A stretch of 64,000 bases of DNA from NCBI RefSeq assembly GCF_014207595.1, contig NZ_JACHGY010000001.1:3044836-3108835 (forward strand). Direction: 5' to 3'. Numbering within the stretch: the first letter of the stretch is position 1; each line of letters opens with the position of its first letter. A program made the position numbers and the translations under genes. The notes under the pieces were generated by a model. The model did not search any database, was not told the origin of the DNA, and saw only the letters and a list, made by a program, of their open reading frames with translations. The DNA is from Algisphaera agarilytica (GTDB lineage Bacteria > Planctomycetota > Phycisphaerae > Phycisphaerales > Phycisphaeraceae). Positions 13,100-18,978 of this stretch are shown one piece after another.

Positions 13100-15283
13100 A
13101 TGGCCAAGAAGAACGAAGCTTGGGGCATCGACGTCGGAGCCAACGCGATCAAAGCGGTGAAGCTGATCCGCAATGGCGACGACGTCCAGGTCGATGACTT
13201 TGCCGTCCTCCCGTTCAAGCAGGTCCTCACCACGCCCGACCTCGACGTCGACCAAGCCATTCAGGTTCAGCTCGAGACGCTGATCCAGAAGCACGAGATG
13301 GAAAAGACCCGCGTGGTCGTGTCCGTGCCGGGCAACATGGCCTTCGCCCGCTTCGCCAAGCTCCCGCCCGTCGAGCCGAAGAAGATCCCCGACATCGTCA
13401 AGTTCGAGGCCCAGCAGCAGATCCCGTTCCCGATCGAGCAGGTCGAATGGGACTACCAGGTCTTCCAGCAAGACGACTCGCCGGACGTCGAAGTCGGCAT
13501 CTTCGCCATCACCAAAGAACGCGTGATGGGCTACCTCAACAACTACCGCACGGTCGATATGAAGGTCGACTCGCTGACCCTCTCGCCGCTGGCGGTCTAC
13601 AACACGTTCAACTACGAGTCGCCCGAGGGTGAAGGTGCCATCTACATGGACATCGGCACCGTCTCGACCGACGTGATCATCGTCGAAGACGGCGGCATCT
13701 GGCTCCGCACGCTACCCATCGGCGGCAACAACTTCACCGAAGCCCTGGTCAAGCAGTTCAAGATCAGCTTCCCCAAGGCCGAGAAGCTCAAGCGCGAAGC
13801 CGCGACCAGCAAGTACGCCAAGCAGATCTTCCAGGCGATGCGTGCGGTGTTTGCCGACCTGGTTCAGGAAGTGCAGCGTTCGCTGGGCTTCTACCAGTCA
13901 CTCAACCGCGACTCGAACCTGACCAAGCTCGTGGGCGTGGGCTCGACCTTCCGCCTGCCGGGCCTGCAGAAGTTCCTGAAGCAGCAGCTGCAACTCGACG
14001 TCGTCCGCCCCGATGGCTTCGACCGCATCTCGGTGCTGGACGGCAAGCGTGAGTCGGAGTTCTCCAACCACGCCCTGAACATGGCCACGGCCGTGGGCCT
14101 AGGCCTGCAGGGGCTGGGGCTCGAAAAAGTTTCCGCCAACATCCTACCCAGCCACGTGCTCGCGGCGCGGATGTGGAAGGCCAAGCAGCCCTGGATCGCC
14201 GCGAGCGCCGCGTGCTTCGTGGTGGCGGCGGGCCTGGTGGGTGTCAAGCACTTCACCGACGCCGCGACCGTGGACTCGAACCTGAAGGCGATGAATGCGG
14301 CGGTGGGTCCGGTGATCAACGAGGCGAACGGTTACGTGTCGCAATGGTCCGAGATGCAGCAAGAATCAGACCCCCGGCAATTCATCAAGAACCTGCGCCG
14401 CACCCTGGATCACCGCAACATCTGGCCCGGCATCCTCGAAGACATCAGCTTGGCCACTTTGGCGATGGAACCGCAGCCCGAACTGCTCTCCAACGATTAC
14501 GAGAAATACGGATCGATCCCGCGTGATCAGCGTCGCAAGGTCTACATCGAATCGATCGTGCCCCGTTACGAAGTGATGCTCGCCGACGGCAGCCCCGCGC
14601 CTCCGGGGCTGGGCGACATGGCAAGCAAGACGTTTACCGCGGAAGAATTCTTCGGTGAAGAATCCGGGCCTAGTTTCGTGGTGACCCTGACTGGTAGTAC
14701 GCCTTTGGCAACCGCCGATGCTGAGCTCAACGCCAAGCTGGTGCAGTGGTTCCGGGATAATGCCGATCGCGAAGATCGTCCGTACCGATTCGTATTCGCC
14801 GACAACACCAACCCGATCAAGTCGCTGCGCAAGGTTGCGGTCGACCCGTCAACTTCGAGGCCGGGGGCGACAGGCGGCGGCTTCGGCGGAAATCCCTACG
14901 GCGGTGGTGGTTTCGGGGGTGACCCGTATAGCGGCGGCGGCTTCGGGGGTGACCCATACAGCGGTGGTGGCTTCGGCGGCGGCTTCGGCGGCGGCTTCGG
15001 CGGCTCTCGCCCTGGCGGTGCCCGCGCCGGCAGTATCTCAGAGTTGATTCCGTTGCGGCCGTTTACGGAAGAGTCCCGAGCGTTTGATCGCGAATTTGTG
15101 ATCGAATTTACGGTCGAGTTGAAATCGCCCCTGGCGGCTCGCCCCAAAGTTGATGACACGCCTTCTCGGCCGGCATCGCCGGTGGAAGATGGCGATGCAG
15201 CCGCCAGCCCGTCTGCGGAATCTCCCGCTGCCGTCAATGAATCTCTTGCCCAAAGTCAGCCCCAAACGGAGGCCAATCCATGA
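13100..15283 (+). CDS. pilM: PilM-type actin-like protein fused to a membrane/periplasmic region with Gly-rich tail
   Basis: Residues 1-345 are a full PilM domain (AWGIDVGANAIKAVKL; YMDIGTVSTDVIIVEDGG nucleotide loop; LVGVGSTFRLPGLQKFL). PilM is the cytoplasmic actin-like platform that recruits PilN/PilO in type IV pili and type II secretion. Normal PilM is about 350 residues; this one is 727. Near residues 362-382 it has a hydrophobic helix (IAASAACFVVAAGLVGV), followed by a helical stretch and a further domain, reminiscent of a fused PilN. Residues about 590-645 are a Gly-rich module with NPYGGGG and repeated GGDPYSGGGF. The stop overlaps the next ATG (ATGA). A Gly-rich repeat in a PilM protein is unusual. 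Confidence 0.88.
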   Translation: MAKKNEAWGIDVGANAIKAVKLIRNGDDVQVDDFAVLPFKQVLTTPDLDVDQAIQVQLETLIQKHEMEKTRVVVSVPGNMAFARFAKLPPVEPKKIPDIVKFEAQQQIPFPIEQVEWDYQVFQQDDSPDVEVGIFAITKERVMGYLNNYRTVDMKVDSLTLSPLAVYNTFNYESPEGEGAIYMDIGTVSTDVIIVEDGGIWLRTLPIGGNNFTEALVKQFKISFPKAEKLKREAATSKYAKQIFQAMRAVFADLVQEVQRSLGFYQSLNRDSNLTKLVGVGSTFRLPGLQKFLKQQLQLDVVRPDGFDRISVLDGKRESEFSNHALNMATAVGLGLQGLGLEKVSANILPSHVLAARMWKAKQPWIAASAACFVVAAGLVGVKHFTDAATVDSNLKAMNAAVGPVINEANGYVSQWSEMQQESDPRQFIKNLRRTLDHRNIWPGILEDISLATLAMEPQPELLSNDYEKYGSIPRDQRRKVYIESIVPRYEVMLADGSPAPPGLGDMASKTFTAEEFFGEESGPSFVVTLTGSTPLATADAELNAKLVQWFRDNADREDRPYRFVFADNTNPIKSLRKVAVDPSTSRPGATGGGFGGNPYGGGGFGGDPYSGGGFGGDPYSGGGFGGGFGGGFGGSRPGGARAGSISELIPLRPFTEESRAFDREFVIEFTVELKSPLAARPKVDDTPSRPASPVEDGDAAASPSAESPAAVNESLAQSQPQTEANP
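14866..15030 (+). repeat. Coding tandem repeat, copy set 1 (in pilM)
   Basis: In-frame G-rich repeats of roughly 27-33 bases encode GGFGG(N/D)PY(G/S)GG units. Synonymous differences between units indicate that the protein pattern is maintained, not just recent DNA slippage. Confidence 0.8.

Positions 15284-18978: not shown

Follow-up and report, generated by a model that had tools for sequence, protein, structure and literature searches.

Why should three neighbouring genes for putative envelope proteins carry the same glycine-rich repeat, and what kind of machine might these proteins build? The genes form an operon in the 4.17 Mb genome of the planctomycete Algisphaera agarilytica, within the 64,000-nucleotide stretch of DNA analysed here (the window). 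A sequence-only reading of this stretch had described three open reading frames, here called M, O and P3; we confirmed their positions, their common strand and the ATGA overlap of the first two (Table 1). Genes on the opposite strand bound the operon upstream (10953-12380) and downstream (19049-19690), and a terminator-like hairpin with a perfect 12 bp stem followed by TTTTTTT closes it. Two adjoining paralogues with CBS-pair, hemolysin/CorC-like architecture (19759-22127, reverse strand) lie 3' of the operon; they are also present in several relatives. As each of M, O and P3 has a single hydrophobic segment near the expected place, their C-terminal parts, and with them every repeat block, are predicted to lie in the periplasm.

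Table 1. Features of the operon and of related loci in the same genome. Plain coordinates are positions in the window; those preceded by G000:C1 are genomic.
Feature	Position	Strand	Basis or remark
Window	G000:C1:3044836-3108835		
M, putative PilM-PilN fusion, Amuc_1101-like, 727 aa	13100..15283	+	Pfam PilM_2, NCBIfam NF045709, phmmer
M, PilM domain, residues 1-345, predicted cytoplasmic, actin-like	13100..14134	+	PilM_2 residues 9-337
M, single transmembrane segment, residues 364-382	14189..14245	+	hydropathy 1.95 over 19 aa
M, Gly-rich linker with PYGG, PYSG and FGGG, residues 584-647; inserted at a conserved site between the final conserved segments of the PilN-like part	14849..15040	+	direct repeats
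O, predicted PilO/Amuc_1100-fold protein, 513 aa	15280..16821	+	AlphaFold2 model, fold search
O, transmembrane segment, residues 17-35	15328..15384	+	
O, linker site 1 (variable), residues 331-371; disordered loop flanked by strands 307-316 and 385-397	16270..16392	+	pLDDT, alignment
O, PYGG tail, residues 477-513	16708..16818	+	
P3, large anchored protein, 684 aa; putative positional counterpart of Amuc_1099	16924..18978	+	gene order, model
P3, transmembrane segment, residues 16-34	16969..17025	+	model, hydropathy
P3, PYGG block 1, residues 333-364; tip of predicted helical hairpin (290-329 / 366-401)	17920..18015	+	
P3, PYGG block 2, residues 409-470; linker from helical hairpin to C-terminal beta domain	18148..18333	+	
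P3, conserved beta-rich C-terminal domain, residues 487-652	18382..18879	+	alignment, model
Terminator-like hairpin	19017..19043	+	
Orphan TPR secretin (L073)	G000:C1:853387-856632		outside window, about 2.2 Mb from operon
Separate set with PilM, secretin and presumed PilN/O/P-like genes (L068)			same genome
GspD-like type II set (L069)			same genome
PilB-, PilT- and PilC-like genes plus four prepilin-like ones; no PilM/N/O, no secretin (L072)	G000:C1:3824000-3836000		

The repeat is built on (D/N)PY(G/S)G units, of which there are 14: 3 in M (residues 598-622), 4 in O (488-512) and 7 in P3 (339-352 and 421-461). Composition-preserving shuffles, which put the chance expectation at 0.0005-0.006 units per protein (at most 1 in 2000 shuffles), ruled out a chance origin. 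At the DNA level a 34-nt unit is present in 18 recognisable copies. When the PYGG repeat was searched against all proteins of the genome, M, O and P3 were the top three matches (E 2e-21, 1e-3 and 0.18) and the next matches were only 42-44% identical; a DNA pattern for the repeat was too unspecific. The sequence-only reading had spoken of shared repeat tails in its title, and although blocks are indeed found in all three proteins, where its text had placed them, a tail exists only in O: the repeat of M forms a loop ahead of a last conserved strand, and P3 has two internal linkers. O has a further linker site (site 1, pLDDT <50 at residues 334-359), without PYGG in this genome and Gly-rich in several relatives.

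M matched Pfam PilM_2 (2e-35), and its best NCBI model was NF045709 (Amuc_1101, 'PilM-like pilus complex protein'; E 3.4e-71 over residues 1-450); phmmer matched it to 3jc8 and 2ych among the PilM structures. The M homologue of a distant planctomycete (L241) spans NF045709 end to end (positions 34-597 of 608), and this, together with the match of M itself, supports the earlier proposal that PilM is here fused with a membrane-anchored part that stands in for a separate PilN. We infer the PilN fold of the periplasmic part from the fusion architecture and the Amuc_1101 model; profile-profile comparison of M with O, and of P3 with O, gave no PilN-PilO homology signal. The score of M (240.8 bits) is below the NCBI equivalog cut-off of 650 bits for Amuc_1101, which was reached by 0 of 196 planctomycete genomes, so we describe M as a relative of Amuc_1101 and claim no membership in the curated equivalog. 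A PilM of the Amuc_1101 family was present in 195 of the 196 genomes sampled, a count to be read with the fact that ordinary PilM also matches the model.

Taken alone, O and P3 had no significant Pfam or NCBIfam family, also when 32 homologues were searched, and their sequence profiles gave nothing convincing against the PDB. The AlphaFold2 model of O (pLDDT 81) had its best fold matches in the Amuc_1100 crystal structures 6lad, 6laf and 6kny (Z 10.7-11.4, 162-174 residues aligned), and it also matched the PilO structures 2rjz (Z 6.5) and 5uvr (Z 5.7), which bears out the suggestion that the second protein is PilO-like. Amuc_1100_fam gave weak matches in 4 of the 32 O homologues, and the modelled O is accordingly assigned a predicted Amuc_1100/PilO fold. 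The P3 model (pLDDT 78) comprises a membrane helix, an alpha/beta domain, a helical hairpin that carries block 1 at the tip, and a beta-rich C-terminal domain joined to the hairpin by block 2. Fold search with P3 yielded no confident match, only immunoglobulin-like and Hsp70 domains at Z <5, so its relationship is taken from its position: on this basis, and on one weak match to the Amuc_1099 model NF042425 (0.025, in 1 of 32 homologues), P3 is probably the Amuc_1099 counterpart.

M, O and P3 were adjacent and in order in 33 of 33 loci first compared, the window included; among these, one locus (L079) has broken M and P3 frames and another (L076) an O frame overlong upstream. An independent scan of named genomes gave 80 loci, 65 of which had all three genes, adjacent and ordered in every case; the remaining 15 were without one or more operon genes, and most of them lie on short or truncated contigs. 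O was found in 58 of 61 relatives, and in no locus compared were the three genes unlinked. The recurring Gly-rich inserts and the conserved gene order rule out a single-strain artefact. The possibility that the repeat is confined to one strain, which the sequence-only reading had left standing, does not hold for the inserts, though the exact PYGG unit is largely genus-level. Beside the operon, no gene other than M, O and P3 was conserved in a majority of the 33 loci, so that neither a pilin nor a motor gene is linked to it. The Phycisphaerales-type operon also occurs in two records titled Vicinamibacteraceae and Chitinophaga pinensis (L131, L163), the titles probably being those of misassigned metagenome bins.

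In distant planctomycetes the operon runs on into a TPR secretin, as M-O-P3-secretin in L241 and as M-O-secretin, or with unassigned genes in between, in L226, L229, L230, L234, L235 and L236. These secretins are of the type of the orphan TPR secretin in the window's genome (E 1e-47 to 3e-57), and the best family of the one in L235 is Amuc_1098 (3e-36). All 61 relatives have the N-terminal part of the TPR secretin; in G041, G045, G049 and G057 the gene is on the operon's own strand, about 5 kb upstream. Because the secretin comes next in distant planctomycetes and is about 5 kb away in these four relatives, the gene order appears to equal Amuc_1101-1100-1099-1098. The TPR secretin is without the linker motif and has a poly-Gly/acidic stretch instead. 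In L242, L244, L245, L248 and L253 the poly-Gly run is conserved, with an acidic stretch behind it (GGGGGGGDSIFGDDDDDED).

The system corresponds in planctomycetes to Amuc_1101-1100-1099, genes of the Akkermansia MUL2 locus. It shares with the Amuc_1098-1102 (MUL2) locus of Akkermansia muciniphila a PilM-PilN fusion, the Amuc_1100 fold and a third anchored protein, all in the same order; a secretin takes the next place as well, but in distant planctomycetes and not in this genome. Unlike MUL2, the window operon scores under the equivalog cut-offs, has only three genes, without an Amuc_1102-type pilin next to the PilM gene, and encodes a longer O and an especially long P3, both with species-specific low-complexity inserts; the secretin has been relocated in Phycisphaerales, and there is none within the window. 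The type IVa pilus complex PilM-PilN-PilO-PilP likewise has a PilM domain, a PilO fold, single-pass periplasmic partners and a pairing with a secretin, whereas here PilM and PilN are fused, P3 is large and the operon has no gene for a PilP-like lipoprotein. What the sequence-only reading had put forward as an undescribed system is therefore a machine of a known kind, that of Akkermansia MUL2-type loci; the novelty lies in partner-matched, species-specific linkers. A search of the open-access literature found no paper on such matched linkers or on this operon in planctomycetes.

Across relatives the insert sites are constant and the motif varies by genus, as PYGG, GMGM, GGFD, GGYG or GGRG. The conserved sites lie between conserved periplasmic segments in M, between two PilO-domain strands and at the tail in O, and, in P3, at the tip of the hairpin and in the linker from hairpin to beta domain. 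Within one genome the linkers of M, O and P3 have a common motif: GMGM in L049, L052, L055 and L092, GGFD in L057, GMGG in L065, GGYG in L093 and L102, and GGRG in L107. A within-genome match is present without glycine in L110 (G003:C442:2000-12843), where the linkers are rich in Arg, Glu and Pro (RRP/WDEF) and both O and P3 have WDEF. In about half of the genomes the linkers are short or not Gly-rich, which indicates that the complex can do without the inserts. Near-identical acidic-aromatic ends were seen in L086 (G041:C11:26000-38000), with M ending in ...DDYGG, O in ...YDDDYGA and P3 in ...FDDDYGA. O often ends, behind a variable acidic/Gly tail, in a lone Phe or Tyr (12 of 67 representatives, alignment A1).

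To quantify this pattern, we compared the k-mer similarity of linkers from two proteins of one genome with that in permuted pairings, using 67 representatives (clusters at 80% PilM-core identity from 103 genomes) and linker borders taken from alignments. M and P3 linkers matched with z 8.8, 9.7 and 9.0 at k=1, 2 and 3, and the M-O and O-P3 pairs with z 5.1-7.5. Permutation within clade bins left the M-P3 match at z 5.5-6.4, a stratification that reduces shared ancestry and does not remove it. The proper partner also beat the partner from the nearest relative (M-P3, p 1.4e-5 at k=1 and 1.6e-3 at k=3, p-values that treat genomes as exchangeable). Site pairs between proteins matched at least as well as those within one protein: z was 8.3 and 8.5 for M site 2 paired with the two P3 sites, and 4.1 and 5.3 for sites of a single protein. 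Whole-genome searches with GGYG and GMGG were uninformative, the GMGG query failing to recover P3's own block in the same genome, and absence elsewhere in a genome is thus claimed for PYGG only.

Could the matching reflect a genome-wide taste for certain disordered sequences, and not partnership? Plain composition (k=1) does contribute to the signal, and since residue-shuffled linkers retain 0.122 of the 0.184 similarity at k=3, composition explains part, not all, of the linker match. However, linker-like stretches of flanking genes from the same genomes did not match (z at most 1.4 against 8-9, in a small control of about 3 genes per genome, with mechanical ORFs, some of them doubtful), and GC-stratified permutation still gave z about 7 for M-P3. 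Gly-rich stretches, moreover, occur in 46 of 133 operon ORFs compared with 9 of 379 other ORFs from the fetched loci (Fisher p 1e-21; one of the nine is a frame-shifted P3), and in the window's genome the PYGG repeat was found clearly only in M, O and P3. These data already weaken an explanation by composition bias, which we regard as improbable. The linkers might also be passive, fast-evolving spacers, one repeat having been spread over three adjacent genes by gene conversion or slippage. The genes are indeed adjacent, and tandem duplication of the unit inside P3 is visible in the DNA. Recent copying between genes predicts excess use of the same codons in common peptide motifs, yet codon identity between M and P3 in the window was 0.43 against 0.42 expected after codon shuffling, and across 23 genomes the mean excess was 0.001 (mean z 0.05). 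This test is able to see recent duplication, since codon identity among the tandem copies inside P3 exceeded expectation (z 3.1 for the window, 6.6 for L052). The M-O and O-P3 pairs had a slight mean codon excess of 0.036-0.038, with z >2 in four genomes (L093, L143, L168, L148). There has thus been no recent DNA-level copying between M and P3, recent gene conversion is ruled out as the main cause of the matching, and between-gene codon use at chance argues for selection at the protein level. What remains is such selection or copying old enough for synonymous sites to be randomised, and ancient copying followed by synonymous saturation is compatible with the codon data. Because the motif turns over between genera yet stays matched, we favour selection for matching, most simply through what would be homotypic contact between linkers, and consider passive spreading of a repeat unlikely.

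A different alternative concerns the machine itself: the operon could encode a separate secretion-type platform, with a GspL-like PilM-PilN fusion and a GspM-like O, that exports enzymes and is neither a pilus nor an uptake machine. GspL of the type II system is a PilM-PilN-like fusion too, with an actin-like domain joined to a periplasmic domain, O weakly matches the periplasmic domains of GspL and GspM (Z 4.5-5.3), and the secretins of distant relatives resemble MshL, PilQ and GspD as well as Amuc_1098. However, M scored only 13.4 bits with the T2SSL Pfam (PF05134), far under the cut-off of 25.5, Amuc_1100 is clearly the better fold match for O, and a GspD-type secretin with a PilC gene is present elsewhere in the genome. 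The third partner and the secretin of the operon also differ from those of type II secretion. On this evidence a secretion platform appears improbable.

Overall, a model that we hold to be somewhat probable is one in which M, O and P3 form the alignment complex of a pilus-like machine of the MUL2 kind, with their periplasmic linkers as homotypic multivalent tethers. In this type-IV-pilus-like machine the cytoplasmic PilM ring of M would be joined through one membrane helix to the PilN-like periplasmic domain, O would be its PilO/Amuc_1100-fold partner, and P3 would be the third anchored protein, in the Amuc_1099 position, of an inner-membrane and periplasmic assembly. The partner secretin is probably the orphan TPR secretin, and the motor may be supplied by the PilB, PilT and PilC proteins of the L072 cluster, a candidate motor for the operon. 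The low-complexity linkers of M, O and P3 would project into the periplasm as multivalent tethers, with aromatic or Met residues as 'stickers' and Gly as 'spacers', and could hold M, O and P3 of one complex together or cluster several complexes. Binding between linkers would keep the motif matched inside a genome while it drifts between genera. Within-genome motif matching, a pattern outside the sequence-only reading, speaks for the self-association or condensation which that reading had proposed, and homotypic association through the linkers would be the best reading of it. More tentative, and in our view rather doubtful, is the further idea that the linkers form a species-specific recognition code, a low-complexity 'lock and key' by which partners of one machine would bind homotypically. 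Such a code would drift by genus while protein-level selection keeps it matched over the three genes, and sticker-and-spacer contacts in the periplasm would assemble or cluster the pilus platform.

The Akkermansia MUL2 locus has been reported to support mucin attachment and uptake, and fucoidan uptake has been shown for aquatic relatives (PMC13174399); planctomycetes have dextran-binding pili-like fibres that emerge from crateriform structures (PMC5394234). By analogy with Akkermansia, the output of the planctomycete machine may be a surface fibre for attachment and for the capture or uptake of glycans, and the operon is a candidate for the dextran-binding fibres if, as we infer, these correspond to a MUL2-type machine. 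We know of no genes that have been assigned to the fibres.

Discussion of co-evolving low-complexity segments usually concerns eukaryotic condensates. In the present case the repeat motif of three partners in a putative bacterial envelope machine changes in concert, at the same sites, in dozens of genera and with independent codon use. Swapping of linkers would make the question of whether low-complexity identity specifies partnership directly testable, and the operon extends the Akkermansia MUL2-type machine to the Planctomycetota.
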